From Candidatus Methanomethylophilaceae archaeon (GTDB lineage Archaea > Thermoplasmatota > Thermoplasmata > Methanomassiliicoccales > Methanomethylophilaceae), in the NCBI GenBank assembly GCA_017540825.1, contig JAFYAH010000016.1:1-64000 (forward strand): 64,000 bases of DNA, written 5' to 3'. Position 1 is the first letter of the stretch, and each line of letters begins with the position of its first letter. This document shows positions 7,620-59,010 of this stretch, piece after piece. The position numbers and the translations under genes are program-made. The notes below the pieces were generated by a model. It had not been told where the DNA came from, made no database searches, and saw nothing but the letters and a program-made list of their open reading frames with translations.

Positions 7620-8647
7620 GTACGAAAACTTCACAATTCGACATTATGCATGACAACCATAATATGCCTGCACCCAATCTACCCGCCATGGATTTCATAA
7701 TGGAGTCCTGCCCGTACTGTGGCGGAAGCACTGAGAAAGACGAGTTCGGAAGGGTCTACTGCCAGAAGTGCGGGTAGCACCTTCGCACAAACAGGTCCGA
7801 CATGAGCCACATCGCGGACGAGTCCATCCCTTACGGAACCACGTTCCTGAAGATGGTCGAGAAGATCAAGGACAACAACTGCAAGGACGCGCTGGAGATC
7901 GCGGAGGGCATTGTGAAAGAAGACGGGGAGACGTTCTTCCCGTACCTGATGCGCGCCATCGCCTACTGCTACAACAGAGAGGACGGGAAGGCCCTCATGG
8001 ACTGGAAGACGTCCATATCCCTCATGGAAGGGACGGACAACGCCGACTCGTACGTCTGCCTCTTCTCCAAGAGCGTCTCCGACCTCATCATCGCCGACGA
8101 GCGCGACTTCATCGACTTCGACTATCTGACCCACATAGACAAGGTGTGCGAGGCCCTGGACGAGCGCCTGGAATGCAACTGCAAGGGGTTCGTGTACCTG
8201 ACGGTGTTCACCTGCTTCATGTCCTCCTACCTCGGGATGGAGGAGAGCGGGAAGAACCAGTGCAAGAACGTGGTCCCCAGCCTGGTCCAGAGGACGGTCG
8301 CGTACAGCAGGGACGCCAACATCCTGAAGGACGTCGTGAACGAGTACCTCGGGGTGAGCGACTACGACGAGACCACGTACAAGGACGACGACAACTACAG
8401 CCTGCACTCCCTGAGCGAGATCTCCAAGAGGATAGAGAGCAACCTGCCGAACGCGGACAAGTCGGAGTTCCCGGGAGGATGGACCGACGCGGAGATGAAG
8501 ACGTCGCTGGAAGGCTACCTCGCGGCCATCCTGGCGTGCGAGGACGACGACAAGCCTCTGGAGAAGTACGCCAAGAAGAACGGCACGATGACCGATCTGG
8601 ACCATGCCATCGAGGACTACTCGAGGAAGTACCTCCGCATCAGATGA
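7616..8647 (+). CDS. Zinc-ribbon/helical-repeat protein with in-frame amber codon (candidate pyrrolysine)
   Basis: The ATG overlaps the previous stop (ATGA). Codons 1-53 encode a short polar tail and a zinc ribbon (CPYCGG...CQKCG). Codon 54 is TAG (7775-7777). Eight sense codons later, in the same frame, comes ATG 7802 and a 281-residue helical region (TFLKMVEKIKDNNCKDALEI, NREDGKALMDWKTSIS) that looks TPR-like and ends at TGA. Under the standard code this is a 53-residue ribbon protein plus a separate gene with only a weak site (AGGT) before ATG 7802. As one 343-residue protein it mirrors the zinc-ribbon/Sel1 protein at 57382-59010, which also has an in-frame TAG. The role is unknown. Confidence 0.65.
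7775..7777 (+). other. In-frame TAG, codon 54 of the zinc-ribbon/helical-repeat gene
   Basis: The TAG falls directly after the zinc ribbon, and the frame continues uninterrupted for 290 codons. The position is a linker, so homology cannot decide between stop and sense here. Confidence 0.5.
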
Positions 8648-9200
8648 TCCCGAGGCCCTCCAGGAGGACCTTCGTCCCTATGGCGACGAGGATGAGCCCT
8701 CCCAGGACCTCCGCCTTCTTTCCGAGCCTGTCGCCGAACAGGCTGCCTATCTTGACCCCCGCCATGGACATGGCAAGGGTGATCAGCCCTATGGCCGCAG
8801 CGGGGGCCAGTATGCCGTCCTCGCCCATAGCGAGCGATATCCCCACTGCCAGCGCGTCTATGCTGGTGGCCACTGCGAGAAGGAGCATGGTCCTGGCGCC
8901 CATGTCGGCGTCGACCTCCTCCTCTTCCCCCGATAGCCCCTCGCGGACCATGTTCGCCCCTATAGCGAACAGCAAAAGGAAGGCCACCCAGTGGTCGTAG
9001 GCCGATATCAGGTCGTAGAACGCCGCTCCGAGGCAGTAGCCTGCTATTGGCATCAAGGCCTGGAACCCGCCGAACCACAGCCCGGCGACCAGCATGTCGC
9101 GAAAGGACGCCTTCCTCAGGGCCAGGCCCTTGCAGAGGGACACGGCGAACGCGTCCATCGCCAGCCCCACGGCTATCAGCAGTATCGCGAGCGCGTCCAT
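8640..9200 (-). CDS. mntP: Manganese efflux pump MntP
   Basis: A 186-residue, six-helix membrane protein of the MntP family that exports Mn(II). It has the two-fold repeat with paired acidic motifs: AVGLAMDAFAVSLCKGLAL in helix 1 and ATSIDALAVGISLAMG in helix 4. The length matches the family. It overlaps the convergent zinc-ribbon gene by 8 bases at its 3' end. A TTTATAG box at about 9222 could be its own promoter. The neighbouring DUF1848 frame runs through the whole gene in another frame, probably because its stop was lost. Confidence 0.93.
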   Translation of the reverse strand: MDALAILLIAVGLAMDAFAVSLCKGLALRKASFRDMLVAGLWFGGFQALMPIAGYCLGAAFYDLISAYDHWVAFLLLFAIGANMVREGLSGEEEEVDADMGARTMLLLAVATSIDALAVGISLAMGEDGILAPAAAIGLITLAMSMAGVKIGSLFGDRLGKKAEVLGGLILVAIGTKVLLEGLGII

Positions 9201-9221
9201 GGCCCGTACATGCCATCTTTC

Positions 9222-10161
9222 TATAAATCCTGAATCGGCAGAAGTCGTCGATCCGGCAGGCTTCGCGGCCTTTCAGCTCCACCACCCTGTCCCTGGGGGT
9301 GACGGAGCCCCACAGCATCTCGGAATCGGAGCAGCACAGCCTGGTCCCGAACCTCTCCGAGGAGGAAGGCGCCGCATAGCAGTATACGCATCCGTGGGCG
9401 CACGTCCCGTACTCGCCGATGTCTATGCTCTTGACGCAGCAGCACCTCTCCCTGAGCTTGGACTGCTGAGCCTCGCAGGGGATGCCTAGGGACATCAGGA
9501 CCCTGCGGTCCAGGCATCCGCGCGGATATATGCCGAACTCGGAGTAGTCCCGCTTGGGGCAGCAGGGCGAGAGCGTCATGCCGTATTCGGCGGCGACGCG
9601 TGACGCCATGCGGAGGAAGTCGTCCTCCTCGACGCGGGTGGCGAGGCGGAGAGCCCCGGACTCGACGAGGCCGCCCAGCTTGCCGTACATGTCCATGAAG
9701 CTGAATATGCATGTGTCGGTCCACTCGGAAGCCTCCCTGCAGAGGAGGTCGAACTTCCTCTCGTGGTAGGAAATGCCCTTCCCCGGCCCGAAGACCACCG
9801 GGTCGTACCTCCATGCGATCCTGTCCCTCCCTATGCGCTCCGATATCCGGATGCAGGCGTCGTTGACGTCGGCCTTGGGCGGCACCCCCGGCTCCAGGTC
9901 CCTGCCGTACGGGGTCATCGTGACCTGGAACAGGGCTATGTGGCCCATGGAGGCTATCTCCTTCATGCGCGGGACCATCGGCCCGGGGTTCTTCGTGACG
10001 AAGAGGATGCAGTCCACGTCCTTCCTCTGCAGGCTCACGCGATAGACCACGTTGCGGGAGACCGGATTGCGGACGAGGACGCTGCCGGCGCGGAGACGGC
10101 CCATCATCCATTCCGAATGGAAAGCCGGGATGTCGGTGCGACGGCTGGCGCAGATGATCAT
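9222..10161 (-). CDS. DUF1848 family protein, apparent loss of stop codon
   Basis: Matches the DUF1848 family, which has radical-SAM-like features and unknown function. It begins MIICASRRTDIPAFHSEWM. It includes FVTKNPGPM, the segment WRYDPVVFGPGKGISYH and a cysteine cluster near the C-terminus (RERCCCVKSIDIGEYGTCAH, GCVYCYA). About 313 codons of family-like sequence end near 9222, but no stop is in frame there and the frame stays open to 8617 across mntP. A TAG in the adjacent frame at 9221 would be reached by adding one base. The 3' end is therefore approximate. Confidence 0.78.
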
Positions 10162-10295
10162 GGATGGGAAACATCGGCATCGGATAAATCTGTCTCGCCT
10201 GGATGACGAGACGGCATAAAGGCTGGTCTTAACGACGGTGAAAACCGGCGTCCAGAACGGAAATAATATACGGTCCGTCACATATCCCGTCGCAT

Positions 10296-10769
10296 ATGGA
10301 GTATGGATGCATCTATTCTAAAGTGACGCTGATCGGAACCATAAGCATCAGCGAGGACGGGGACGGAAACCTGACGGGGGTGTATCTTCCGAACACGAAC
10401 CTGCCCAAGATGGATGTCTCCGAATCCCAGGTCATCGCCGAGGCGTTCGATCAGGTGGACGAGTATCTGAGCGGCAAGAGGCGCAAGTTCGACCTGCCCT
10501 TGGACTACGGGGTCACCGGGTTCCGCAGAACGGTCCTGGAAGAGCTCGAGAGGATACCTTACGGAGAGACCCGCACGTTCAAGGAGATAGCAGAGAGCAT
10601 AGGGTCCCCGAAAGCCTACCGCGCGGTAGGGACGGCGTGCGCCGCCAACCCTCTGCCGATAATAATCCCCTGCCATAGGGTAGTGCCGTCCTCGGGAGGG
10701 GTCGGCAGCTACGCCGGAGGGGAGGCCCTCAAGAAGAGGCTCATAGAGCACGAGAAGTCGATGCTCTGA
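10296..10769 (+). CDS. ogt: Methylated-DNA--protein-cysteine methyltransferase
   Basis: A 157-residue suicide enzyme that removes alkyl groups from O6-alkylguanine. The DNA-binding and active-site half carries RRTVLEELERIPYGETRTFK and the acceptor motif IIIPCHRVV with the reactive Cys, followed by GSYAGGEALKKRLIEHE. The first ~70 residues are the variable N-terminal domain. It stops at TGA. It is convergent with the uncharacterised gene downstream, and the 3' ends appear to touch or overlap. Confidence 0.93.
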   Translation: MEYGCIYSKVTLIGTISISEDGDGNLTGVYLPNTNLPKMDVSESQVIAEAFDQVDEYLSGKRRKFDLPLDYGVTGFRRTVLEELERIPYGETRTFKEIAESIGSPKAYRAVGTACAANPLPIIIPCHRVVPSSGGVGSYAGGEALKKRLIEHEKSML

Positions 10770-11354
10770 CCTTCGCGCCTTCCTCGCGGCGCAGAGCTCC
10801 CTGACGATCCTCTCGATCTCGTCGGCGTTCTCGTTGCCGACGCGCGCGCCCTTGCGCTCGAGGAACGACCATCCGCGCCTCTCGCACTCCTCCTTGAAGT
10901 CCGGGGAGGTCACGGCGATCAGCTTGCCGTCCCATATGTCGCCCCTCTCCAGGAACATGGCGAACATGTCCTTGGGGATGCACATGACGACCTTGTCGAA
11001 CGGACGGGTCAGGTAGGAGACCTGCTCGACGAAGTTCTTGTGCTCGTCGATGAACTCGTACTCCTCCCTGTTGGACATGACGCGAGGATAGCTGTCGATG
11101 ACGTAGTTACCGGGGACGAACCCGTAGCGGGTGGTTATCACGCCGTAGGACACGTCGCACAGCTTCCTTCCGTTCTCGTCCACGGCGGTGTCGAGGCGGG
11201 CCACGAGGTTCTTCACCTCGGTCGCGCGGCCCCCGAATATGTTGAACGCGCTGTCCACGCCCTTGCTCCTGAACACGGTCGAGTCGTTGGTGACGACCAG
11301 TATGCGGACGGAGGTCTTCATCTCCGTCATGATCTTGGCTTCGCTCTTCTGCAT
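10770..11354 (-). CDS. Conserved hypothetical protein downstream of hypD
   Basis: Starts at ATG 11354, two bases after the hypD stop, so it is co-transcribed with hypA-hypD. The soluble alpha/beta protein begins MQKSEAKIMTEMKTSVRILV and contains YGVITTRYGFVPGNYVIDSY and PFDKVVMCIPKDMFAMFLER. The family is not recognised; a link to hydrogenase maturation is only suggested by position. No stop is in frame at the plausible end (...ELCAARKARR); the frame stays open to 10278, antisense to ogt. One added base would lead to a stop at 10741. The end is approximate. Confidence 0.6.
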
Positions 11355-11356
11355 GA

Positions 11357-12439
11357 TCAGAACCTCTTGGATCCCAGCCTGTAGGAAATGCTGCAGTTGC
11401 CTTCCATGGACACCATGCACGGCCCCATGGGGTTGGACGGCTTGCACACCTTGCCGAACATCGGGCACTCCTCCGACTTTATCAGGCCTCTGAGGACGTC
11501 CCCGCACCTGCATCCGTTGGCCTCCTCCTTCACCTCGGGGGTCTTCGCGAGGATGTCCTCGTGAACCTTGGTGGCGTCGTGGTCGGCGAACTTCGGCTTC
11601 AGCGCCAGCGCGCTCTTGGGGATCAGCGGGAACCCCCTCCAATGGCGGTCCACCGGGGTGAAGGTGTCCTCCATCAGCTTGAGGGCTATCGGGTTGCCCT
11701 CCGGCCTGACGAGCCTGGTGTACTCGTTCTCCACCTCTGCGCGGCCCTCGCGGATCTGCTTGCAGAGCATGTAGCAGGACATGAGTATGTCCAAAGGCTC
11801 GAACCCGGCGATGACCTGCGGGAGGCCATGCACCTCGGACACGGGGCGGAACATGGACTCCCCGGTGATGACAGCCACATGCCCCGGCTCTATGAATCCG
11901 TCTATGGTGGACTCCCCGAGCGAGAGCAGCGCGTCCAGTATGGGCGGGCATATCCTGTGGCAGCTGTAGACGCTGAAGTTCTCGGGGCAGTCCTCCTTGT
12001 GGAGCGGGACGCAGGTGGACGGGGCGGTGGTCTCGAACCCGACGCCGACGAACACCAGGGGCTTCTCCTGGGCCCTGGCCATCTTGACGGCGTCGTCTAT
12101 GGAGTACACTATCCTCACGTCGGCGCCGTCGGCCTTGGCGGAGAACAGGGACCCGATCGTCGTGGGGACCCTCATCATGTCTCCGAACGCCGTGACGGTG
12201 ACCCCGTTGCGCGCCAGGGTGATGGCGTCCGCGATCTCGTGGCTGGTCGTGACGCATACCGGGCATCCGGGGCCCTGGGCTATCTCAATCCCTGCGTCCC
12301 TGAGCATCTCCTCCAGGCCGAAGCGGACGATCGTGTCCTGGTGGGTCCCGCAGATATGCATGAACTTCGCTTTCACGCCCGTGTCCTTTATGCCTTGAAG
12401 GATCTTCTTGGCAGTCTCCTCGTCCCTGTACTTGAACAT
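11357..12439 (-). CDS. hypD: Hydrogenase maturation protein HypD
   Basis: A 360-residue iron-sulfur scaffold that, with HypC, assembles the Fe(CN)2CO unit of [NiFe]-hydrogenases. Conserved cysteine motifs are visible: FMHICGTHQDT, GPGCPVCVT, and the cluster ligands near the C-terminus (NGCRCGDVLRG, CPMFGKVCKP, GPCMVSMEGNCSI). GVGFETTAPSTC is also typical. The start overlaps the hypA 3' end by about 50 bases and has a GGAGGAG site upstream. No hypC is seen in the window. Confidence 0.96.
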   Translation of the reverse strand: MFKYRDEETAKKILQGIKDTGVKAKFMHICGTHQDTIVRFGLEEMLRDAGIEIAQGPGCPVCVTTSHEIADAITLARNGVTVTAFGDMMRVPTTIGSLFSAKADGADVRIVYSIDDAVKMARAQEKPLVFVGVGFETTAPSTCVPLHKEDCPENFSVYSCHRICPPILDALLSLGESTIDGFIEPGHVAVITGESMFRPVSEVHGLPQVIAGFEPLDILMSCYMLCKQIREGRAEVENEYTRLVRPEGNPIALKLMEDTFTPVDRHWRGFPLIPKSALALKPKFADHDATKVHEDILAKTPEVKEEANGCRCGDVLRGLIKSEECPMFGKVCKPSNPMGPCMVSMEGNCSISYRLGSKRF

Positions 12440-15756: not shown

Positions 15757-15792
15757 GGAATAAGAAGATGGGGGCCGGAGCCCCGGAACGGA

Positions 15793-16587
15793 TCAGTCGA
15801 AGATCTCCTTGTAGATGGAGTCCACGAGCTGGTGGTAGGTCATCCCCTTGGAGTCGGCGACCTCGCGGACGAGGTCCATGGTCCCGGAGCCGTACTGCGC
15901 CGCCTTCTTCCTCTTCTCCGCGATGAACGGGTACCCGAGGTCCCTGGCGATCTGCTTCAGGAGGGCCTTCCTCGAGTCCGCGTCCTTCGGCTTCAGGTCG
16001 GCGATGTCCATGGCCCCCACCTGCATGGTGACGACCGGGTCTATGTAGGGGTACAGGAGCGTCTTGCCGAAGTGGTTGGCCACGCGGGTCTCGTGAGGTA
16101 TGGTGGACGTGATCAGCTTGCCCATGTCCGACTTCATCGCCCTGGCCAGCTCGTCGTCGGGCATGCCGATGTACTTGCTGTATCCGGCGAACAGCTCGTC
16201 AGACCCCTGGCCGCCGATTATGTACCTCTCGTGCACGGTCCTGCAGACGAAGAACAAAGGGAGCTCGAAGGACAGGGTCAGAGGGCTGGATGTCCCGGTG
16301 ATGGATATCATCTCGCGGAGCCTGGACTCGATGTTGTCCTTGGTTATCGGTATGTGCAGCCATGGGAGGCCGAGCCTCTCCGACATGTCGCGGGCCATCA
16401 CGACGTCGTAGGACTCGTCCTTTCCTGACGTGTACAGAGTGACGGACCTGGCGTAGTCCTTGGCGATGGCGGCCACGAGGCCGGAGTCCAGACCGCCGGA
16501 GAATGCAACGGCGACGTCGCGGTCCTCGACGCCTGTCCTCACGGCGGAAATGATCGCGCTCTCGAGGTTTTCGGAATTCACGGACAT
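15793..16587 (-). CDS. Asparagine-synthase-like ATP-pyrophosphatase
   Basis: A 264-residue protein without a glutaminase domain, paralogous to residues 1-255 of the protein at 4894-5928. Shared blocks are the PP-loop FSGGLDSGLVAAIAKDYARS, GGQGSDELFAGYSKYIGMP and RKKAAQYGSGTMDL. It ends at the point where the other copy continues into its RelB/DinJ-like domain. It is probably an adenylating amidotransferase-type enzyme of unknown substrate. It sits 36 bases upstream of the ATP-grasp ligase gene, so both may act in one amide-forming pathway. Confidence 0.85.
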   Translation of the reverse strand: MSVNSENLESAIISAVRTGVEDRDVAVAFSGGLDSGLVAAIAKDYARSVTLYTSGKDESYDVVMARDMSERLGLPWLHIPITKDNIESRLREMISITGTSSPLTLSFELPLFFVCRTVHERYIIGGQGSDELFAGYSKYIGMPDDELARAMKSDMGKLITSTIPHETRVANHFGKTLLYPYIDPVVTMQVGAMDIADLKPKDADSRKALLKQIARDLGYPFIAEKRKKAAQYGSGTMDLVREVADSKGMTYHQLVDSIYKEIFD

Positions 16588-16708
16588 GCGTGCGGAATCC
16601 CCTAGGACGAATAAAAAGGATATGCCACGGCTCAGGAGGCGCCGGTATCACTTCTAGCGTTCTGGCTATATGAAAAGTGTTATCTAAACCGCCAATGATA
16701 CGACCGGC

Positions 16709-17149
16709 ATGGAAGGAGTCACGCGCATAGGCGTTTCGTTGGAGCCCGAGCTCCTCGATAAGTTCGACAGCTCGATCCGCAGCAAAGGTTATGTGAGCAG
16801 GTCAGAAGCTGTACGCGACCTCATCCGCGACTCGCTCGCTGAGAACGAGTGGAAGAACGACGACCAATGGATGGTGGGCACGATCGTGCTGATCTACGAC
16901 CATACCCTGAACTCGGTAGGGGACAAGCTGACCGACATCCAGCACAAGCACATGGCCACGGTCAACACCTCCGTCCACGTGCACCTGGACAGCGAGAAGT
17001 GCATGGAGATCCTCATATGCGAGGGGGAGCTGAAGGTACTCAAGGACTTCGCGAACGAGGTCTCCTCGATTAAAGGGGTTCTCAGGGGAAGACTCACCAT
17101 GGCAGCGCCCTCTACAGGGAATCTCCACCACATCGGGCACAGGGGCTGA
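16709..17149 (+). CDS. nikR: Nickel-responsive regulator NikR
   Basis: A 146-residue ribbon-helix-helix repressor with an ACT-like nickel domain. The DNA-binding part is RIGVSLEPELLDKFDSSIRS...SRSEAVRDLIRD. Nickel ligands are visible as His in QHKHMATVNTSVHVHLDSEK followed by Cys. An imperfect dyad GTGTTAT...ATGATAC at about 16676-16703 lies just ahead of the start and could be an autoregulatory site. Nearby hyp genes fit nickel homeostasis. Confidence 0.92.
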   Translation: MEGVTRIGVSLEPELLDKFDSSIRSKGYVSRSEAVRDLIRDSLAENEWKNDDQWMVGTIVLIYDHTLNSVGDKLTDIQHKHMATVNTSVHVHLDSEKCMEILICEGELKVLKDFANEVSSIKGVLRGRLTMAAPSTGNLHHIGHRG

Positions 17150-17692
17150 CCTCTCCACCCCGTCCACTCCCAGGACGATGGTGGATATCCCTTCCGAGCC
17201 CTCCATTCCGAAGCGGCGGTTCAGGTAGTCGGCCGCGCTGACGGAAGGGTAGAATATCCAGGGCTGCTCCGTCCCGAAGTCGGACGGCCCCGGGAACGGG
17301 CTCGCCTTCATGACCATATGCGGCTTCGAGGACGATATGGAGTCCGTGTAGAGGACGAACGACTCCGACAGCCATACCACGTTGTCGAGCTTCGATATGC
17401 TTCCCATGAGGCTCGGCGGGACGTCCTGGGCCATCAGCGTCCCGTACTCGTCGACTATCTCTATGGTCACCACGTCCGGGCGAGGGAAATCGGAATCGCA
17501 GAACACGACGGCGACGAAATCCCTGCAGACGCATTTTCCCAGCCCCACGCTCTCTAGGTCCATGGAGCCGGAGAAGACCTTTACGGAGTCCTCCTCGTCG
17601 ACGAGGCCAGCTATCGTCTCCGAGTCCAGGATCTCGACGCGGACGACCCCAGGTTTGGAACGAATCTTGGAAATCATCTCGTCGCAACGCAT
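17094..17692 (-). CDS. Uncharacterised protein with paired CxxC motifs, probable frame break
   Basis: Starts MRCDEMISKIRSKPGVVRVE at ATG 17692, about 25 bases after a TATA-like stretch (17713-17724). An upstream in-frame TTG (17710) would add MEHTSC and create CMRC. The body is soluble (CVCRDFVAVVFCDSDFPRPD, NVVWLSESFVLYTDSISSSK). Near 17155 the frame loses a protein-like end and stays open to 16802, antisense to nikR. Adding one G to the GGGG run at about 17160 switches to a frame reading GGGEVSPCARCGGDSL, then TAG and TGA five codons later (17094). The family is not recognised. Confidence 0.5.
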
Positions 17693-20198: not shown

Positions 20199-20209
20199 TC
20201 CTGGCTCCT

Positions 20210-27621: not shown

Positions 27622-28185
27622 ATGAAGTTCCCGCCGTCGACGGACATCAAGAGGATGAGGAAATCCATGGACGTGACGCAGACCTGCCTCGCGAAATAGT
27701 CAGGTATCGGGCAGAGCACCATCGCCAAGATAGAGCAGGGGAAGATTTCCGCCAGCTACGCCACCGTGGTCAAGCTCTTCGAGACGCTAGAGGCCATGAA
27801 GCAGGAAGGACTCAAGGACCTGACCGCATCCGACGTCGCGTCTAAAGGGGTGGTCACGGTTCAGAGCTCGGAGAGCGTGCTCCGCGCCTCCGAGATCCTC
27901 AGGAGCACTGGATATTCCCAACTGCCTGTGATGGACGGCGAGGTCCCGGTCGGGAGCATATCGGAGAGGGACCTGTTCGACATGCTGAGGCAGGGCTTCA
28001 CGATGGGGCAGATGAGGTCCACCCAGGTCTCCAAGGTCATGAAGGAGTCTTTCCCGATAGTGTCGGACAGCACCCCGATGGCGCTGGTCACCCTCCTGAT
28101 GAGCGACAGCAACGCGGTACTCGTAGCCCAGAAAGGAAAGGTCACAGGGCTGATAACGAACGCGGACATGCTGAAGCTCATATGA
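27622..28185 (+). CDS. XRE helix-turn-helix plus CBS-pair regulator with in-frame amber codon
   Basis: ATG 27622 opens MKFPPSTDIKRMRKSMDVTQ, the start of an archaeal XRE-CBS regulator. Codon 26 is TAG (27697-27699), between TCLAK and SGIGQSTIAKIEQGKISASY. Relatives have a continuous helix-turn-helix here (pattern LAxxSGVSQSxIAKIE), so the frame is clearly one gene. Two CBS motifs follow (residues about 68-125 and 130-187; KGVVTVQSSESVLRASEI and LVTLLMSDSNAVLVAQKGKV), likely binding adenosyl ligands. Read with pyrrolysine, it has 187 residues; the alternative is a pseudogene or a shortened CBS-only protein from GTG 27766. It is divergent from the SAM synthetase gene. Confidence 0.85.
27697..27699 (+). 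other. In-frame TAG, codon 26 of the XRE-CBS regulator
   Basis: Lies in the turn region directly before SGIGQSTIAKIE of the helix-turn-helix. Conserved helix-turn-helix sequence on both sides makes a sense reading very likely. Confidence 0.8.
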
Positions 28186-41899: not shown

Positions 41900-43050
41900 A
41901 TGGAGAGAACGGAGGACGGCAGGCTGAGGTCCGCGGACGTCTTCAAGGGCCTGGCGATATCCTTCATAGCGGTCCTCCACCTTGCGATCGCGGCCAGAGC
42001 CGGGATGGACGCCCCCGCTCCCGCCGTTCAGGCCCTGTACCTCGGGCTCATGGGGTTCTTCATAATGTCCGGCTACTTCCTCGCGCCAGGAAGAGGCTTC
42101 GGAGGGAGCATGCGGCGCCGCTGCAGGTCGCTCCTGCTGGTCCTGATCGTCGCCGCGACCGTCCTTCCCTTGGCGAGCTTCGCATGGTGCTGCCTGTGGG
42201 GGCAGCCTACGGACGCGGAGGACCTCCTCCGTTGCCTTATCCGGACCTTCGCCATGGAGCTGTCCTTCATGCCGTACGACGACACCGTCCCATGGGCGGT
42301 CTGCGGATTCTCGATGGGGTATTACTTCCTGTGGTGCATGCTGTTCGCGTTCCTCGTGTTCTACGCTGTCGCCGACCGCGTCAGGGACGACACCAGGCTG
42401 GGGACCCTGGCCGTGGTCGCTCTGGTTGCACTGACGGCTGCTTACAGGGAGGCCCTGGACTTCACTCTCCCGATGTACGTCAACCTGTCTCCGATAGCTG
42501 CCGCGTTCATGATCTGCGGGATGTACATGCGCGAGCGCGGCCTGGGCGGATGGGTTGAGTCCGGAAGGGTCCGGAGCCTCGGATGGTGGAGTCTGTTCCT
42601 CGGGAGCGCCGGGATCCTGCTGGCCATGGTGCACGTGCTTCCGCCGGGCATATTCTTCGACCGCATGAGCTTCGGGGAATACGGAGGGTACTCCGCCTTC
42701 CCATACATGGTCGAGGGCGTCCTGGCGTTCGTGACGATACTTTACCTGTCGTTCTTCATATCGAAGATCCCGGTGCTGTCGAAGGCTCTGGAGAAGCTCG
42801 GGAGGCATACCTTGGGAATCCTGCTGCTGCACGTCTTCATCGCGAAGATGGCGCTCGCCCCGTTCTTCGCATTCGACGAATCGAGCTGCCTCCCGACGGA
42901 TTTCACGGGCGTCGCAAGGGTCCTGTTCTCGCTCTCGGCGCTCCTCGTCTCCTACCTCGTCTGCGAGCACGGGCCCGCCGTGCTGGATCGCCTCATGAAG
43001 CGGGGAGGGAAGGCGAAAGGCTCGGAGGACGGTCCGGAACGATGCGGGAT
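41900..43050 (+). CDS. Acyltransferase family 3 membrane protein, no stop found at the expected end
   Basis: A membrane acyltransferase with about ten hydrophobic segments: DVFKGLAISFIAVLHLAIAA (active-site His region), YLGLMGFFIMSGYFLAPGRG, LLLVLIVAATVLPLASFAW, and GILLLHVFIAKMALAPFFAF near the end. Such proteins O-acetylate surface sugars. A TATA-like CATATATC at 41869 makes the ATG leaderless. The membrane part ends near 42990 (AVLDRLMKRGG) but the frame stays open to 43927, antisense to the dehydratase-NUDIX gene. A TGA at 42996 lies in another frame. The end is approximate. Confidence 0.78.
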
Positions 43051-43858
43051 CCGGCTCCGAGCCAGAAGGATGCCGCCCTCGGATACGTCCGAGCAGCCTT
43101 GCGACGACCTCTGGAGTGCCGTCCACGTGCTCCAGGGCAGGAACCTCTTCGGGAAGGACCCATCTGAAGGCCACGTTCTCCTCGTTGAGGACCGGCTCCA
43201 CATCCCTGACCTTGAACAGGAACGGATAGACCTTCCACAGTATGCTCCCTTCCCTGGTGTATACGGGGGGAAGACGGCCGTCCGGCTCTCCGACAGAGAC
43301 CCTCGTCTCCTCCATGATCTCCCTGCGGGCGGTATCTGCGGGATCCTCCCCCTCCTCCACCCTTCCGGCGACCAGCGACCACCTTCCGGGGAAGGAATGG
43401 CACCTCTCTGGGCGCTTCAGCATCAGTATCCTCTCGCCGTCGAACAGCACCGAGGAAACGGATTCGCGCATCGTGACGCCCTCTACCTCTACTGTGCCGG
43501 CCTCCGCGTCCACGACGGCCGTGTCGCCGTTCCTGAATATCCCTATCGAGGGTATCGAGTCTATCATCGGTATGGACGAGATCACCGCCCCGGTGGCGAC
43601 TATGGTCTCCGCGGACTCGTTCACGACCGCGGCTGGCTGCTTCCCATGGACCGCGAGGTCGTACATGACGAACGATCCGACGGTGCTGCCCTTCCCTCTG
43701 GGGAACACGAGGACCTTCCCTGCGACGTTGCCGCCGTCCCCGACGCGCACCTCCCCCGTGGCCCCGTCGACGCCTCCGAGGAAGCTCAGCGGCTCCGGGA
43801 TCACCAGGACCTCGCCCCGGGCCTTCCCGGGAGATATCATGCGTCCTTCGAACCTCAC
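43045..43858 (-). CDS. Phosphomevalonate dehydratase small subunit (DUF126/AcnX swivel) fused to a NUDIX domain
   Basis: GTG 43858 overlaps the large-subunit stop. Residues about 7-130 are the aconitase-X small-subunit swivel domain (MISPGKARGEVLVIPEPLSF...GSFVMYDLAVHGKQPAAVVN). The same frame continues without a break into a NUDIX hydrolase (about 135-265) with box GRVEEGEDPADTARREIMEE (G-x5-E-x7-REUxEE). The small subunit completes the enzyme that forms anhydromevalonate phosphate in the archaeal mevalonate pathway. No stop is seen near the NUDIX end (about 43045); the frame runs to 41879. The NUDIX substrate is unknown, perhaps an isoprenoid diphosphate. Confidence 0.8.
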
Positions 43859-45030
43859 ATGACCACCCCCATAAGGGCGGAGATGTCGCGGCACATGGCC
43901 TTCTGCGAGCACAGCGTCGGTAGGTAGTTTCCGGCCTTGGCGGAGTTGGTCCCCGTCCTCGAGAACGTACCCTCTATGGGGGCCACTACCATGCACGTGT
44001 CGGCCAGGACAGGCCCGAACTCCTCCATCACCCTGACGTCCTCGGGACATCTGTCCCTGACCTCCGCGGAGGTGCAGAACCATATCTCCACGTCCTTCCT
44101 GACCTTCCTCTTGCCTTTGAGGAACGACGCTATCTGGTGCATCTCCTTCTCGGTCAGATGGGGGCACCCTATCGCTATGAGCTCCACGTCGTCGGCCACG
44201 TTCAGCTTGTCGTAGGCCGCCTCGAGCTCCTTCTCGCCGATATGTATCGTCTCCAGGCCGGAGACGTCGAACCTGCCCGCCTCCGGGGTGGTCCCCTCGG
44301 CATGGTACAGCGCGACGGACCCGGAAGCGGCCATCGCGGCGGACAGGGCCTTCGCCTCCTCGACCTGCGGCCTTATCCCTCTGAAGTACGGGACGCCCGT
44401 GCCTATCGACATGCCGACCGCCTGTCCCAGGAGCGAATAGGAGAACACCGAGCCGTCGATGTCCGCGTCTATGACGACCGTAGGCCTCCTGTTGATGTCA
44501 AGGTGGAGGCCGTAGTTAGCAGTCTTGCCCAGGATGGCGGCGGCCAGGGCCCCGGGTCCGCCCTCGCGGTTGGTGCGGGCGCCGATGAACGAGTTCACGA
44601 ACGACAGAGCGGACGACTCCGCCCAGGCCACATGGTCCCCCAGCTTCGGGACGTTGGCCCCGGTGTAAGGCGTGCAGGAGCAGGTGGTCCTGATGCCCAT
44701 GCTCCCGTACAGGTCGATGATCCTGAGCTGCTTCTCGGCGAAGGCCTCGGGGATGTGCATCTCCCTCCATCTGGTGCGGTCCATCCCAACGGGGTTCAGG
44801 GTGGACGGGACCGAGACCTTGGCCCCGCCCGCGACCATGTCCTCGAGGTACTTCATGCCGCCGTCGCCGATGGTCTTGTAGGAGGCGCCGGAGAGGTGCG
44901 CGGAGGTTATGTCCACCAGGCTCTCGGCGCCGTATATCTTGCCGAGGGCGGTGACCAGCTCCATGGCCTTCTGCCTTCCCTCGCCTTCTTCGCCGTTGAG
45001 GATGGCCTCCTCGGCTCTTGTCAAATCCAT
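43855..45030 (-). CDS. Phosphomevalonate dehydratase large subunit (aconitase X)
   Basis: A 391-residue aconitase-X catalytic subunit of the modified archaeal mevalonate pathway. Start MDLTRAEEAILNGEEGEGRQ at ATG 45030. Iron-sulfur and active-site regions include IRTTCSCTPYTGANVPKLGD, AWAESSALSFVNSFIGARTN, REGGPGALAAAILGKTANYG, LIAIGCPHLTEKE, EIWFCTSAEV and TSAKAGNYLPTLCSQKAMCR in the last part. Its TGA overlaps the small-subunit start, indicating tight coupling. Confidence 0.93.
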   Translation of the reverse strand: MDLTRAEEAILNGEEGEGRQKAMELVTALGKIYGAESLVDITSAHLSGASYKTIGDGGMKYLEDMVAGGAKVSVPSTLNPVGMDRTRWREMHIPEAFAEKQLRIIDLYGSMGIRTTCSCTPYTGANVPKLGDHVAWAESSALSFVNSFIGARTNREGGPGALAAAILGKTANYGLHLDINRRPTVVIDADIDGSVFSYSLLGQAVGMSIGTGVPYFRGIRPQVEEAKALSAAMAASGSVALYHAEGTTPEAGRFDVSGLETIHIGEKELEAAYDKLNVADDVELIAIGCPHLTEKEMHQIASFLKGKRKVRKDVEIWFCTSAEVRDRCPEDVRVMEEFGPVLADTCMVVAPIEGTFSRTGTNSAKAGNYLPTLCSQKAMCRDISALMGVVM

Positions 45031-45159
45031 GAGGGTGCACCGCAAGGGATTCTAATAACCGTGTCGGAGCAGCCCGCGACGGTCGCTGCGGCGTCCGGCG
45101 ATCCCTACGTCCGTCTCTGGTCCCCTCCTGTCGTCCCCGGACCCCTGGCGCGGTCGGTC

Positions 45160-46903
45160 CTCGCAGGCTCCATACGTCGGAGTCGGTCTGGAGCTTCACC
45201 ATCCTCTCGAACAGCCCTCCGGATTCCCTCAGCACCGACGGCGGGCCTTCCTCGCCCACCTTCCCTCCCGACAGGACGACGATCTTGTCAGCCTCCTCCA
45301 CGGTCCTCATCCTGTGGGCGATTATCAGCACCGTCTTGTCGACTACGAGCCTGGACAGGGCCTTCTGGACCCTACTCTCCGATTCGGTGTCGAGCGAGGC
45401 CGTGGCTTCGTCCATGATGATGATCGGGGCGTCCTTCAGTATCGCCCTCGCTATGGATATCCTCTGCCTCTCGCCTCCGGAGAGCTTGCTCCCGTTCTCG
45501 CCTATCACCGTGCCGTATCCTTCGGGAAGAGCGGACACGAACTCGTCGCACATCGCAGCTTCGGCCGCCGCGAGCACCTCCTCGTCGGATGCTCCCCTCC
45601 TTCCTATGCGGATGTTCTCCATCACCGTGGTGTTGAACAGCACCACGTCCTGGAATACTATGGAGTACTTGCCCATCAGCGTCTCGGGATCGACCGTGGA
45701 TATGTCTATGCCCCCCAGGGTTATCTGCCCCTTGTCGACATCCCAGAACCTTGTGGCCAGCCTGGCGACGGTGGACTTCCCCTCTCCGGACGGGCCCACC
45801 AGCGCTGTGACCTCCCCCTGCCTCGCCACGAAGGAGACGTCCTCCAGGACCGTCTGGCCGCCGTTGTACGAGAACCCCACGTTCTTGAACTCGATATCGT
45901 AGTTCCGAGGCTCGAAGGACTCCGACCCGGTCTGGATCTCCATGCCGTTGATCTCCTGGATGCGCTCGCAGTGGTCCTCCGCCAGAAGCATGGCGGCAAG
46001 GTTCTGCAAGGCGATGTGGATCGGGTTGTAGATGCTCCCGACCATGATGAGGGCCGCGACGTAAGCTATCAGCGGTATGGAACCTTCGGAGAGCAGCACG
46101 GCGCCTGCTATGGCCGTGGTCGCGATCCCGAGCTTCAAGACCAGCTGCCCGCCGACCACGAATATGGTCATCGTCAGCTCCGACCTGATCTCCGCGCCCT
46201 CGACGGCGTCGAGATTCCTCCCCAGCTTCTCCATATAGGAGCCCTGCGCATCGTTGGCCTTGAGGTCCGCTGAGCATTCCAGAGACTCCTGTATCATCTC
46301 GGTGACGGCCTCCATCTTCTCGATCTTCTTCCTGTTCTCCTTCTTCTGCATCCCGGCCGAGAGGAACACCATGAGGAGCGCCACCGGGATCGGCCAGACT
46401 ATCGCCAGCCCTAATATGGGGGACCATGCGACTATCATCACGCCGACGGCGGTCGTGAATATCAGCGAGGCTATGAGGGCGGGGATCCAATGGGACAGCG
46501 CGGTCTCCTGCATCGTCACGTCGCCCATCATGCGCACCGTGAGGTCGGTGGGGTCCTTCTTGGCGAAGAACGACAGCGGGACCTTCCTCATCTTCTCCGC
46601 CATGCCCGTGCGGACGTTCCTGCTCTCCTGGTAGACGTCGAAGAAGCAGCGGTTGTACTGGTACAGATAGGCGGCGCCGGTCGCCAGCATCAGCACCAGG
46701 CCTATCGCCGCATAGACCCATAGTTCGAGGCCGAAATCGTACTGGTTGTCCCCTATCAGGCCGGCCACGAACATTATGGCGACCATCATCGGGACCATCA
46801 GGACGAAATCCGTGAGGAGCGTCGCCGCGATGGCCTCCTTGAGGTTGCTCCATTGCTACTCCGAGAGCCCCCAGCGTTCTTTGAGAGACCCTGGAACGCT
46901 CAT
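45160..46903 (-). CDS. ABC transporter, fused membrane/ATPase subunit 2, with in-frame amber codon
   Basis: ATG 46903 overlaps the stop of the partner ABC gene (ATGA). The N-terminus reads MSVPGSLKERWGLSE, TAG (46856-46858), then QWSNLKEAIAATLLTDFVLM. In relatives this segment is continuous (ALSE-x-G..DL.KA). A six-helix exporter-fold domain follows, then an ATPase with Walker A GPSGEGKST, signature LSGGERQRISIARAILKDAP and Walker B IIIMDEATASLD. The protein should end near 45160 (MVKLQTDSDVWSL) but the frame stays open to 44516. Without read-through the first start would be ATG 46798, losing helix 1. It probably pairs with the upstream subunit as an importer (YbtPQ-like) for a metal chelate. 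Confidence 0.85.
46856..46858 (-). other. In-frame TAG, codon 16 of ABC subunit 2
   Basis: Sits in the N-terminal elbow motif WGLSE-x-QWSNLKEA, which in relatives is continuous with a polar residue at this place. The gene's only coupled start (ATGA overlap) lies upstream of it, so the amber must be read for normal expression. Confidence 0.8.
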
Positions 46904-54017: not shown

Positions 54018-54030
54018 CAATATTTAACCA
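54018..54030. promoter_or_regulatory. Shared AT-rich promoter between the binding-protein and AraC genes
   Basis: AATATTTAACC is near-palindromic at its core. On the minus strand GGTTAAATATT can serve the binding-protein gene. On the plus strand it lies about 27 bases from ATG 54050 of the AraC gene, fitting a leaderless start. Confidence 0.4.
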
Positions 54031-54049
54031 TGACTAAAAATTACAAATA

Positions 54050-55078
54050 ATGGGGCCTTCCTCACTGCCTCAAGGTCGGCGAGGCGGCATGGACGCTCTG
54101 CTCTACAACAATTTCGAGATCACACCGTTCGAATCGGGCCTCAGATACTCCATCATCGGCCCTGACGGATCGACCGATGTGATGAACTATCCTTTCGAGG
54201 GGTTCGTCGTGAACCATATGGTCACGGACATGCCGAGGTTCTCCAACAGGAACCAAATCGGCCACATGAACTACATCATGATAGACTGCACGGTGCGCGG
54301 TAGGATGACCATAGAGTACAGCGGAAAGCATCTGTCCCTGTCGCCCGGCAGCGTCGTCATCTATTACCCGGTGAGCGTGCAGTCGTTCATGACCGTCCAC
54401 ACGGAAGGATACGAGTCGATCACCATCGGAATAGACCTGGACAGATACGGCATCCTGCCCGAAGACGCCGATATGGAGCCTGTCGGCGCTGTCGGGCGGT
54501 TCGTTGAGCAGCACAAGGACAGGCCGCTGTGGCCTTTGAGGCTGCCAGACAGGCCCATGGCCGACGTCATAGCCATCTAGAGGGCCTTGGTTCGTCCTGA
54601 GAGAAGGGCGCTGATCCATGCTCTCGTGGACGAGATCCTGGAAGACCTTTCCGAGCCGCTGGACGCTCGCTCCGAGGGGATGGTCCTGACAGATTACGCG
54701 AAAAGGGAGGACCGGCTGTACGACAGGCTGGCGTCTTGCTACGACCGCCCATGCAACATGAGGGAGGCATGCCTGGACCTCGGCATGGACAGATGCAACA
54801 TATGCTCGTCCTTCTCGAAGGTGTACGGGGATACGCCCTACGCATTCCATAAGCGCCAGAGGATGCTCTGTGCCTCCGGCGAGCTGATGGTCGGCGACGA
54901 GCCCATCGGGGCGATCGCGAACGGCATCGGCTTCCAGAAGGAGAGCAAATTCGCCGAGGAGTTCCAGAAGATGTTCGGATGCACCCCCAGCCGGTTCAGG
55001 AAGAGGTGCCGCAGTATGCTCGACGGATCGTCCCGCATCGACAGCCGAAGCGGCCGTCCTGCCGGCTCCCGAGGTTAA
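54050..55078 (+). CDS. AraC-family regulator with in-frame amber codon
   Basis: A 342-codon gene divergent from the uptake operon. The N-terminal part (NFEITPFESGLRYSIIGPDG, then LSPGSVVIYYPVSVQSFMTV) is an AraC-type ligand-binding region. Codon 177 is TAG (54578-54580), between PMADVIAI and RALVRPERRALIHALVDEIL. The C-terminal part has the double helix-turn-helix: CNMREACLDLGMDRCNICSS and EPIGAIANGIGFQKESKFAE...FGCTPSRFRKR. Without read-through the protein would lose its DNA-binding domain. AraC regulators are uncommon in archaea; transfer from bacteria is likely. ATG 54089 is an alternative start. It stops at TAA. Confidence 0.85.
54578..54580 (+). other. In-frame TAG, codon 177 of the AraC regulator
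   Basis: Lies between the ligand-binding and DNA-binding halves. Both halves are in the same frame with no other stop, and the second half has no ATG start nearby and no ribosome-binding site. Confidence 0.75.
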
Positions 55079-55115
55079 GGTTATAAGGTCGCTGGGAATC
55101 GCTCCGCCGACAGAC

Positions 55116-55472
55116 ATGCTGTTGAGCGCGATCGCGGTGGCGGCCGGAGGAGCCATAGGCGCCGTCCTGAGATTCTCCGTGTACAGGCTCGTCGAGACGG
55201 ATTTCCCATGGGCGACGTTCATCGTGAACATCGTCGGATGCGTCCTGGCGTCGTTCCTGATGTTCCGCTACGGCGTGGACATGCAGGACCAGCTGAAGAC
55301 GTTCCTGTTCGTGGGGCTGTTCGGCGCGTTCACGACCATGTCCACGTTCTCCATCGACACCGTTAACCTCATCGCGGACGGGTCGTACTGGTACGCCGCG
55401 GGCAACGTCCTCCTCAACTCGGCGGTCTGCGTGGCCGGAGCGGCTGCAGGAAGGTACCTGGCGCTCCTGTAA
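55116..55472 (+). CDS. crcB: Fluoride channel CrcB/Fluc
   Basis: A 118-residue, four-helix fluoride exporter. Signature segments are AAGGAIGAVLRFSVYRLV, FPWATFIVNIVGCVLASFLM and the Fluc motif GLFGAFTTMSTFSIDTVNLI. Fluc channels act as dual-topology dimers; a single copy fits a homodimer. It stops at TAA. I see no recognisable fluoride riboswitch in the short gap upstream. Confidence 0.93.
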   Translation: MLLSAIAVAAGGAIGAVLRFSVYRLVETDFPWATFIVNIVGCVLASFLMFRYGVDMQDQLKTFLFVGLFGAFTTMSTFSIDTVNLIADGSYWYAAGNVLLNSAVCVAGAAAGRYLALL

Positions 55473-55519
55473 ATGGAAAGGATGCGGCCCGGAGAACGGC
55501 CGGACCGCGTTTCGTGCGC

Positions 55520-55663
55520 TCACTGGGTCTTTATCATGAACCTGAGGCAGAACGGTATCTTGTCGCTGTGCGCCTTGTGGAACTCCACGCATTCCATGCA
55601 GTTCCCGTGCCTGGGGCAGCTCTCGTTGGGGCAGTTGCAGTTGGGATTCAAGTCCTGTGGCAT
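55520..55663 (-). CDS. Small cysteine-rich protein
   Basis: A 47-residue protein starting MPQDLNPNCNCPNESCPRHG with seven cysteines in the first 40 residues (CNCPNESC, CMEC, then CLRF). It is likely metal-binding. It stops at TGA. It resembles small proteins common in methanogens, but the function is unknown. It lies convergent to crcB and just downstream of ybaK on the same strand. Confidence 0.7.
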   Translation of the reverse strand: MPQDLNPNCNCPNESCPRHGNCMECVEFHKAHSDKIPFCLRFMIKTQ

Positions 55664-55689
55664 GAGATTATGACCGATTGCCGAGTTTA

Positions 55690-56172
55690 TTACTCTTGCG
55701 CAGGCTTCCTGATGTCGGCGAACCTTACCCCCGGGATCGCCTTGGGGATGTCCGAGGAGGCGAGCTCCAGCTGGTATCCTATCTTCCCTGCGCTGACGAA
55801 GAACCTCTCGTGGTCGTTGGCGGTGGAGTCGACTACTACCTTAACGGGGCGCTTTATGCACATCGGGGAGCATCCCCCGTGGACGTAGCCCGTGACGGAC
55901 AGCAGGTCAGCCGACCTTATCATCGACACGGACTTCTCGCCCACTGCGGCGGCGGCCTTCTTCAGATCCAGCTCGCCTGTCACCGGGACCACGAACACGT
56001 AATAGGACCTGTCCTTGGACTGTGTGACGAGGGTCTTGAAGACCTCCTCCGGATGCTCTCCCAGAGCCTCGACGATCTCCATGCCCCCCAGGGGCTCGTC
56101 ACCGTAGGTGTGGACCGAATATGGTATGCCTAGCTTGTCCAGATGCCTCATCGGGTTCGTCTTGACGTCCAT
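55690..56172 (-). CDS. ybaK: YbaK/EbsC-family Cys-tRNA(Pro)/Cys-tRNA(Cys) deacylase
   Basis: A 160-residue editing enzyme that removes mischarged cysteine from tRNA(Pro). It begins MDVKTNPMRHLDKLGIPYSV and contains EEVFKTLVTQSKDRSYYVFV, VPVTGELDLKKAAAAVGEKS, and GYVHGGCSPMCIKRPVKVVV. It stops at TAA. Full length for the family. Confidence 0.92.
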   Translation of the reverse strand: MDVKTNPMRHLDKLGIPYSVHTYGDEPLGGMEIVEALGEHPEEVFKTLVTQSKDRSYYVFVVPVTGELDLKKAAAAVGEKSVSMIRSADLLSVTGYVHGGCSPMCIKRPVKVVVDSTANDHERFFVSAGKIGYQLELASSDIPKAIPGVRFADIRKPAQE

Positions 56173-56217
56173 GAGGCGTCGATTAGGGCGCTGATTTATA
56201 ATTTCATCCGTCGGAGT

Positions 56218-57366
56218 TCAGTCTTTGCCGCCATCGGACTCGAACCTCTTGGCGACCTCCTTGAGGAGCTCCCTTATCTCGAGATGCTGGGGGCACACCT
56301 GCTCGCAGTTCCCGCATTCCATGCAGTCCGATGCCGCGCCATGGCCGCCGGCCGTTATCGACGACCTGTAGTAGAAGCGGCCGGTCCAGTCGTGAAACCT
56401 CTCGTTGGCGTTGAGAGCGGAGAACATCTCCGGTATGAGGATGTCCATCGGGCATTCGTTCTCCTCTATGCAGTAACGGCATCCGGTGCAGGGGACGAGG
56501 GTCATGCTGCTGAATATCGAGCGCACCCTTTCTATCGCCGCCGACTCCTCCTCGGACAGGGGGCGGAAATCCCCCATGGTGGAGAGGTTGTCCTCCATCT
56601 GCGCCATGTCGCTCATCCCGGACAGCACCACGGCCACTCCGGGGAAGCTCGCCGCATAGCGTAGGGCGTAGCTGACGTTGCTGCCGCCTCCCAGGGCGCG
56701 AAGAACGCCGTCCGCCTCATCCGGGAGGTCCGCCAGGCTCCCTCCCTTCACCGGCTCCATCACCATGACGGGGAGCCCGCGCTCCTCGCAGACGGCATAG
56801 ACGTTGTCGCTGTCGACTGAAGGGTTGCCGTAGTCGGCGTAGTTAAGCTGGATCTGCACGAACTCGACCTCGGGATGGTCGTCCAGGATCCTCTCCAGGA
56901 CGTCGGCCCTGTCGTGGAAAGAGAGCCCGAGATGCCTTATCAGGCCTTCGTCCTTCAGATCGGAACAGGCTTCGTAGGCCTTGCAGCGCTGGAACTTGCC
57001 GTAGTTCCTGCTGTTCTGGGAATGCATCAGGTAGAAGTCGAAGTACTCCGTGCCGCACGACTCCAGCTGGCTCTCGAAGAACGGGCGTATGTCCTTCTCT
57101 TTCTCGAAATAGGGCTCGGTCAGCTTGTCGGCCAATAGGAAATCCTTCCTGTCGTGCCTCTCGGAGAGGCATTCGCGCAGCGCGGTCTCGGACTTCCCGC
57201 CGTGGTACGGGCGGGCGGTGTCGAAATAGTTGAAGCCGGAGTCCAGGAAGGCGTCGACCATCCTGCAGAGCTCGTCGCTGTCGACCTCCCCCTCCTTCAA
57301 GGGAAGGCGCATGAGCCCGAACCCGAAGTTCCCTTTGACCTCGGGAAAGAATCTGTTGCCCTCCAT
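56218..57366 (-). CDS. Aldo/keto reductase with C-terminal ferredoxin-like domain
   Basis: A 382-residue protein. Residues 1-280 form an aldo/keto reductase barrel with FGLMRLPL, catalytic Asp and Tyr in NYFDTARPYHGGKSETALRE, Lys in LLADKL and His in FYLMHSQNS. Residues about 290-370 carry two [4Fe-4S] motifs: CTGCRYCIEENECP and CMECGNCEQVCP. It fits the family of ferredoxin-linked reductases of anaerobes; the substrate is unknown. Confidence 0.92.
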   Translation of the reverse strand: MEGNRFFPEVKGNFGFGLMRLPLKEGEVDSDELCRMVDAFLDSGFNYFDTARPYHGGKSETALRECLSERHDRKDFLLADKLTEPYFEKEKDIRPFFESQLESCGTEYFDFYLMHSQNSRNYGKFQRCKAYEACSDLKDEGLIRHLGLSFHDRADVLERILDDHPEVEFVQIQLNYADYGNPSVDSDNVYAVCEERGLPVMVMEPVKGGSLADLPDEADGVLRALGGGSNVSYALRYAASFPGVAVVLSGMSDMAQMEDNLSTMGDFRPLSEEESAAIERVRSIFSSMTLVPCTGCRYCIEENECPMDILIPEMFSALNANERFHDWTGRFYYRSSITAGGHGAASDCMECGNCEQVCPQHLEIRELLKEVAKRFESDGGKD

Positions 57367-57381
57367 TCAGCCGCCTCCGCT

Positions 57382-59010
57382 TCAGAACTTGAACCCGAAC
57401 AGCTTTATCCCCTTCTTCTCCTGGGGCTGGTCGCTGCTCCCGGAGGACGATCCCCCCTTGTAAGCGACCTTCGTCTTCGAAGGGAAGACCTCCGCGCCCA
57501 GGGTGGAGTCCTTGCCGAGCGTGATGGAGTCCAGGGCCGTGCATCTGGTGAAGGCGCGGTCGCCGATCGCCACCGCCGAGGACGGCATGGAGACCGACGA
57601 GAGGGACGTGCATCCGGCGAACGCGCCGGTGCCGATGGCGTTCAGGGACGAGGGGATCGATATCGAGTGCAGGGCGGTGCATCCCGAGAACGACTTGTCC
57701 CCCAGCTTTGACAGCGAGGACGACAGGCCGACGGAGGAGAGCTTCGTGCAGTCGCGGAAGGCCCCCTCCCCCACGGATGTGACCGAGGATGGCATGGACA
57801 CCGAGCACAGGGAGTCGCACCCCTGGAACGCGAAGTCCCCGATGGTCGCGAGGTTGGGCGACATGGTCACCGAGGAGAGGGCGTTGCATTCGCGGAAGGC
57901 CCCCTCGCCCAATGAGGTCACCGAGGGGGGCATGGACACCGACGACAGCGCGGTGCATCCCTGGAACGCGCGCTCCCCTATGGTGGTCAGCGACTGGGGG
58001 AGGCTCACGGAGGCGAGCGCGGTGCACCCGGAGAAGGCGCTCCTCTCTATGGATATCAAAGAAGGCGGCAGAGTCACGGAGGCCAGGGACTTGCAGTCCG
58101 AGAACATCCCCCTCTCCAAGACGGCCAAGGAAGTCGGCAGGGTGATCGCAGCCAAGGACCTGCAGCCGGAGAACGCCCCGTAGTCTATGGTCTTCACCGA
58201 GGGCGGGATCATCGCCTTCGAGAGCGACTTGCACCCCGAGAACGCGTCCTTCCCTATCGACGTCACCGAAGGGGGGATCTCTATGGACTCCAGCGAGGTG
58301 CAGCCCTGGAACGCGCGGTCGCCGATGGACTTCACCGACGGCGGTATGTTTATGCTGACCAGCCTCTTGCATTCCCGGAACATGTCCCTGTCGATCTTGG
58401 AAGTCCTGGGCGGGATTGTGAACGTCTTGAAGCCCTTTATGATCATGCGCAGGGGCCTGGTGCACTTCCCCCCGGAAGAGGCCTTCTCGAACCATTTCAA
58501 GGCCTCGGAGTCGGACTGCAGGCGGGTGCTGTTTGAATAGATGTACGAGAGCTTGTACTGGGACTAGACGTCCCCCTTCTTGGCCAGGTTCAGGACGACG
58601 TCGAAGATCATGAAGTCCATCTGCTCCTTCTTGAAGGGGGTGCCGGAGAGGATGCAGCTGTTCTCCAGCGAGCGGACCGCGCTCTCCGGAGGGTCGGCTA
58701 TCGGGAAGTCGCTCTTCATCAGCTCGCTGACGCCGTCTATGCGCCATATGTCCGCGTCGGCGGCGTTTATGGAGATGAGGTTCTTGGTCATCTCGAGCGC
58801 CTTGTCGAACTCGCCCTTCTGGCAGTAGGCGGCGGCCAACGGCTTCAGGCTGGCCCTCTGCTCCTTGACGGACATCTCGATGTTGATATGGTTTACATCC
58901 TTCGTGACGAGGACCTTGGAGCCACAGTACATGCAGAAGCCGAACTCGCGGGAGTCGTCCAGGTCTATGTCGCCGGCGCAGTTGGGACATTTGAGCGAGA
59001 CTAAAGCCAT
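57382..59010 (-). CDS. Zinc-ribbon, Sel1-repeat and leucine-rich-repeat (BspA-like) protein with in-frame amber codon
   Basis: ATG 59010 begins MALVSLKCPNCAGDIDLDDS, a zinc ribbon (CPNC...CMYC). A helical region follows, ending NLAKKGDV. Codon 149 is TAG (58564-58566), then SQYKLSYIYSNSTRLQSDSE and ALKWFEKASSGG. These two sides together form one Sel1 repeat (A..GD-x-xQY.L...Y......D..EA.KWF.KA...G). About 14 BspA-type leucine-rich repeats (SIxIPPSVxSIGDxAFxGCxSL) fill residues about 190-520. It stops at TGA. BspA-like repeats mediate adhesion or protein contact; no signal peptide is seen, so it is probably cytoplasmic. Without read-through, the LRR part would have only a TTG start. Confidence 0.85.
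58564..58566 (-). other. In-frame TAG, codon 149, inside a Sel1 repeat
   Basis: The TAG interrupts the consensus GD-x-xSQYKL of a Sel1 repeat at a position usually held by a polar residue. This places the codon within a folded domain and strongly supports a sense reading. Confidence 0.85.

Follow-up and report, generated by a model that had tools for sequence, protein, structure and literature searches.

The genome under study belongs to the Methanomassiliicoccales, is close to Methanomethylophilaceae of rumen and gut, and comprises 2,366,961 bases (2.37 Mb) on 73 contigs; it is labelled G000 in the comparisons below. The window, that is, the whole stretch of DNA that was analysed, spans bases 1 to 64,000 of contig C11 (81,316 bases) and has a GC content of 60.8%. 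Base-by-base reading of G000 covered 709,626 bases, 30% of the genome, with 606 gene models, which extrapolates to some 2,000 genes overall. A first-pass annotation had proposed that five TAG codons in the window lie inside frames that continue in the same phase. We located in-frame TAGs by a frame scan in which only TAA and TGA counted as stops, by a codon-bias scan and from the translations, and took the five sites as +7775, +27697, -46858, +54578 and -58566, which match the range and the two regulators given in that annotation. The proposal was borne out at all five sites, since homologues span the TAG and both of its flanks in each frame.

The first of the five genes (7616..8647, plus strand) encodes a zinc-ribbon protein of 343 codons and starts at an ATG overlapping the preceding gene's TGA (ATGA, 7616-7619). 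The internal TAG (7775..7777, plus strand) stands directly after CQKCG, giving CQKCG-O-HLRTN, where O marks the TAG codon. Homologues of this protein at E 1e-5 occur in 30 of the 102 family genomes, every one of this genus. The second gene (27622..28185, plus strand, 187 codons) encodes an XRE helix-turn-helix and CBS-domain regulator with an in-frame TAG at 27697..27699 (plus strand; LAK-O-SGIGQSTIAKIE). The read-through protein matches Pfam HTH_3 (1.8e-10) and CBS (1.5e-15), and some match, part of these weak, is present in 143 of the 147 order genomes. The third encodes an ABC exporter with membrane and ATPase parts (45179..46903, minus strand, 575 codons aligned; Pfam ABC_tran 6.5e-28, ABC_membrane 1.2e-13), in which TAG is codon 16 (46856..46858, minus strand; GLSE-O-QWSNLK). 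Its ATG also overlaps the TGA of the preceding gene (ATGA, 46903-46900), and the frame stays open to 44516, beyond the homologous end. A start downstream of the TAG is unlikely for this exporter, because residues 1-15 ahead of the TAG align with homologues. The fourth gene (54089..55078, plus strand) encodes an AraC-type regulator of 329 codons, whose TAG (54578..54580, plus strand; MADVIAI-O-RALVRPE) lies ahead of the DNA-binding domain, with the Pfam HTH_18 match (3.2e-15) 3' of it; homologues at E 1e-10 were found in 8 of the 102 family genomes. The fifth (57382..59010, minus strand, 542 codons) encodes a zinc-ribbon / Sel1 / BspA-type leucine-rich-repeat protein with TAG at 58564..58566 (minus strand; KKGDV-O-SQYKLSYIYSNS). 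It matches LRR_5 at 1.5e-99, and its Sel1 match (0.00013, 22.8 bits) falls below the gathering score of 30.7. As the annotation had also stated, TAG thus occurs in genes with no relation to the methylamine methyltransferases, two DNA-binding regulators among them.

The codon aligned with each TAG in relatives was read at the best-matching loci, numbering 30 for the XRE-CBS gene, 12 for the AraC gene and 20 each for the zinc-ribbon, ABC and Sel1 genes. Loci that fall short of the TAG were left out (0 of 30, 1 of 12, 0 of 20, 2 of 20 and 15 of 20, respectively), and all column counts include the window gene itself. For four of the five sites the TAG column is shared by two to four species, and the fifth, in the ABC exporter, is private. 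At 7775, TAG stands in 2 of the 20 covering loci (the window and the sister genome G080, 74% identity), the other 18 holding K (15), R (2) or M (1). The 27697 column has TAG in 3 of 30 loci (G000, G080 and G091) and A, E, L, Q, R, S, K or D in the remaining 27. At 46858, TAG occurs in 1 of 18 covering loci; the closest three (G080, G089 and G083) carry AAG (Lys), and the G080 orthologue is 94% identical without the TAG. The 54578 column has TAG in the window and G080 only (2 of 11 covering loci), with R, K, W, Q or I in the other nine, some of which are distant paralogues; the G080 gene carries a second TAG 23 codons upstream of the shared one. Finally, TAG occupies 4 of the 5 covering loci at 58566 (G000, G080, G085 and G091; 61-68% identity), with AAG in G084. 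G085 thus has TAG in its Sel1 gene but no pylS over cut-off in an assembly that is 82% complete.

Each of the ten pairs compared had dN below dS downstream of the TAG, weakly so in the 58566 gene (dN/dS 0.2-0.7). The downstream values ranged from a dN of 0.027 with a dS of 0.20 in the ABC exporter to 0.453 with 0.64 in the Sel1 gene, both against G080; the zinc-ribbon gene, also against G080, gave a dN of 0.176 and a dS of 0.62. Errors, pseudogenes or chance do not account for these values and the shared columns.

The pyrrolysine genes, which the first-pass annotation had proposed to look for, are all present. ARAGORN placed a tRNA-Pyl with anticodon CTA (CUA in the RNA) at L001 1234-1304, and it is followed by pylS (TIGR02367, 255.5 bits against a cut-off of 178.15), pylB (TIGR03910, 433 bits), pylC (TIGR03909, 296 bits) and pylD (TIGR03911, 199.5 bits), all over cut-off and on a single stretch of contig C68. 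Upstream on the same contig lies mtmB with an in-frame TAG, where the MtmB match (1.7e-228) runs across the TAG at L006 13485, and G080 has this TAG at the same position. A pylS over cut-off is found in 27 of the 31 genus genomes and in 91 of the 147 order genomes. The release factor aRF1 scores above its family cut-off in single copy in G000, and it is single-copy in all 28 of the 31 genus genomes that have a match.

In-frame TAGs are not confined to the window. A joint gene model on the 709,626 bases gave 17 genes with 23 internal TAGs, a rough number of which only some were checked against homologues. This model splits the 7775 and 54578 genes, misses the RNA polymerase A' and CfbB sites described below, and contains doubtful sites, among them one at the second codon of a model and two from near-identical stretches. 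A filtered list of TAGs in conserved frames holds 22 sites, some antisense or weak; the unfiltered list was swamped by antisense frames and left unused. Among the homologue-supported sites is an RPA-type single-stranded DNA-binding protein, for which G000 has one match only at E 1e-40; relatives in 26 genus genomes hold Lys at this site 25 times and Arg once. Another lies in a probable CfbB (Ni-sirohydrochlorin a,c-diamide synthase, F430 synthesis), 30 codons before the next stop; relatives extend beyond the TAG and place D, E, R, K or P there. This protein scores 499 bits against the CfbB cut-off of 560 and passes that of the wider cobB family. Further homologue-supported TAG sites occur in Sel1 proteins. 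An RNA polymerase A' gene also has an in-frame TAG; of the 22 other loci that cover it, G000's own other copy included, 19 have Lys and 3 have Arg. That further copy, on contig C48, is free of TAG, and RNA polymerase A' was therefore dropped as evidence for an essential pyrrolysine-containing gene.

The avoidance of TAG as a stop codon, as claimed initially, is not strict. The window has 55 gene models, which become 53 when two genes split at an internal TAG are merged, and three of these end in TAG (5928, 43927 and 63549). None of the three ends was confirmed: homology ceases 81 codons short of 5928 and 32 short of 63549, and for the gene ending at 43927 the sister orthologue stops 4 codons beyond residue 374 of 675. 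For a wider comparison we used three pylS-bearing genomes (G000, G080 and G076) and two without pylS over cut-off (G110 and G142). Raw TAG-ended models numbered 49 of 589 in G000, 22 of 422 in G080 and 3 of 134 in G076, compared with 22 of 203 in the pylS-lacking pair. In the absence of homologue support G000 thus differs little from that pair; many G000 ends are disturbed. Such crude models were replaced by homologue-confirmed ends, because TAG-ended models include antisense shadows, disturbed ends and true internal TAGs. An end counted as confirmed when a homologue from the untargeted stretches of the four remaining genomes backed its position, because loci fetched as matches to TAG genes would favour the class in which the frame runs on.

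By this measure, TAG forms 3 of 190 confirmed ends in G000, 4 of 442 in the three pylS-bearing genomes and 3 of 52 in the two pylS-lacking ones. The difference from the pylS-lacking genomes was not significant for G000 alone (p 0.12) and reached p 0.03 for the three pylS-bearing genomes. In this trio, the homologous frame ran on at 14 TAG ends and stopped at 4, compared with 44 and 407 for TGA (Fisher 9e-11). G000 alone gave 6 and 3 for TAG against 11 and 173 for TGA (1.3e-5), with at least one of the six cases (L276) looking antisense, and the pylS-lacking pair gave 1 and 3 against 5 and 38 (p 0.43, on small counts). The exceptions to avoidance are three genuine-looking TAG ends in the 709,626 bases of G000 (L010 3605, L023 10397 and L271 8436), which align with the TGA or TAA ends of homologues. 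In two of them a further in-frame stop comes within 9 and 13 codons, and the three could be either true stops or short tails produced by read-through. Our data therefore indicate that TAG has been largely, perhaps not wholly, given up as a stop and may still end some genes.

We consider it very likely that UAG is a rare sense codon decoded as pyrrolysine in this genome, and that TAG-ended genes have largely been lost. Three other explanations were weighed against this. It is extremely unlikely that the TAG genes are pseudogenes or products of sequencing errors. Disturbed gene ends are indeed many: among G000 models that have a homologue, the end is unconfirmed in 16 of the 25 that finish in TAG and in 62 of the 246 that finish in TGA. 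This is outweighed by the identical TAG column in separately assembled sister genomes at four of the five window sites, by a dN below dS 3' of the TAG in every pair compared and by frames that remain open beyond it. Reading of UAG as a standard amino acid, such as lysine or glutamine, by another suppressor tRNA is hardly tenable either, as tRNA-Pyl is the sole tRNA with a CTA anticodon among the 11 tRNAs in the 30% sample. The residue found in close relatives at first appears to favour lysine. Against a mutational expectation of 22%, and with sites grouped by hand, Lys stands at four of eight homologue-supported G000 sites (7775, 46858, RPA and RNA polymerase A'; p 0.075), or at five once the Sel1 site is counted on its single informative relative (p 0.015). 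For six sites added from G080, the best-aligned residues are Q, Q, S, S, D and W; none is Lys, and over the resulting 14 sites the four or five Lys no longer stand out (p 0.37 or 0.17). A preference for origin from Lys codons was thus not established.

Context-dependent suppression of UAG has been reported for some bacteria. Applied here, UAG would mainly be a stop, read through at chosen sites via a cis element or regulated pyl expression. This account overlaps with decoding of UAG as a rare sense codon, as both agree on the residue inserted, and it draws on the few TAG ends that still resemble real stops and on the single-copy aRF1. We nevertheless regard it as unlikely. When 102 bases from the TAG were folded at nine sites, no common downstream stem-loop was shared among them; compared with codon shuffles, eight of the nine sites fell within 1 sd, and CfbB alone stood apart (z -2.06). 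Moreover, TAG occurs in unrelated genes, RPA and the probable CfbB among them, and the very low share of TAG among confirmed G000 ends does not fit a codon that is mainly a stop.

Decoding of UAG as a sense codon would operate as follows. PylB, PylC and PylD would make pyrrolysine, PylS would charge tRNA-Pyl(CUA) with it, and UAG would be decoded; we infer from the pyl genes, at the level of sequence, that the inserted residue is pyrrolysine. Such decoding would be standing and would extend beyond the methylamine methyltransferases. Point mutations to TAG in ordinary genes would persist because they are tolerated under decoding of this kind, some TAG sites would have outlived speciation, and TAG-ended genes would mostly have been lost over time. 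The pattern resembles the drift of a sense codon that is tolerated, and we infer constitutive decoding and TAG sites that are for the most part neutral. The suggestion in the first-pass annotation of a possible whole-code change stands in that amber is read through, but falls short in that some confirmed ends of G000 are still TAG and a single-copy aRF1 over cut-off is retained.

The same annotation had proposed a regulatory side to the TAG codons. As sensors, the XRE-CBS and AraC regulators might couple gene expression to the supply of pyrrolysine and thereby to methylamine metabolism: lacking pyrrolysyl-tRNA, the XRE protein would be cut short once residue 25 is in place, and the AraC protein ahead of the DNA-binding domain. 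Three species keep the XRE TAG and two the AraC TAG. We consider this very unlikely, because the TAG columns of both regulators are variable, with many different residues in TAG-less relatives, and because TAG is found equally in unrelated genes (RPA, the probable CfbB, Sel1 and RNA polymerase A').

These results bear on how such genomes are annotated. Under code 11, gene calls will break off at the TAG in RPA, the probable CfbB, regulators and transporters. If RPA and CfbB need UAG decoding, the pyl cassette would be tied to replication and methanogenesis and would not be optional during growth on methanol. Shared as opposed to private TAG sites also make it possible to date the point from which the codon could be used safely.

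Decoding of UAG outside the methyltransferases is already in print for close relatives, and the finding here is mostly expected. Proteomics reportedly backs a wholesale change of TAG to pyrrolysine in some archaea, the archaeal "Pyl code" of Kivenson et al. (Science 2025). The present genes were not found described as pyrrolysine proteins in a literature search that covered mainly the main texts of freely readable papers. TAG stop use is given as low across the order, at 11% or less (PMC3941956), and a contrary statement limits pyrrolysine to a few methyltransferases (PMC11363022). The rumen relative ISO4-H5, likewise with a pyl operon, is described as having 46 genes with in-frame amber codons, Cas3 and metabolic enzymes among them, and differs in that the available text does not name the window genes (PMC5011839). 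Another close parallel is "Candidatus Methanomethylophilus alvus", apparently of the same family as G000 to judge from the closest named relatives, which has a full pyl set. Its description lists 16 predicted pyrrolysine proteins beyond the methyltransferases and 1.6% TAG stops, and its authors suggested that the pyl cassette is constitutively expressed (Borrel et al. 2014, PMC4153887). Its TAG genes include a Sel-1 protein and an Rv0623-like transcription factor; Table 7 of that paper names no XRE-CBS, AraC, zinc-ribbon, RPA, CfbB or RNA polymerase A' gene, while holding unnamed hypothetical proteins (PMC4153887). Compared with what that source presents for "Ca. M. alvus", our analysis demonstrates TAG columns common to several species (PMC4153887).

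In four genes of the window (4942-5928, 41900-43927, 44516-46903 and 63547-63990), the reading frame overruns or departs from the end found in homologues, a pattern that suggests lost stops or frameshifts in the assembly of this genome. Gene ends that are not confirmed by a homologue are also frequent in the sampled sequence of the genome.

The Sel1/DUF6270 protein at 3165-5159 of locus L017 is modelled with two in-frame TAG codons, and that at 15769-17604 of locus L019 with three. A Sel1 gene with the conserved TAG was also observed at locus L110 (contig C85 of the relative G085), in a genome that is 82% complete and has no pylS above the cut-off; perhaps pylS lies in the missing sequence.

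Two distant AraC homologues from two species, L061 (G087) and L063 (G083), both have a TAG at query column 89, which differs from the TAG column of the window AraC gene.

The genome of the window encodes two RNA polymerase A' genes with 84% mutual identity, the TAG-bearing copy (L275:2462-5416, contig C13) and a second copy (C48:37861-40794), and the relative G080 also encodes two, with 67% mutual identity. The TAG-bearing copy is not set in an rpo cluster; its neighbours are ABC transporters and methanol methyltransferase genes.
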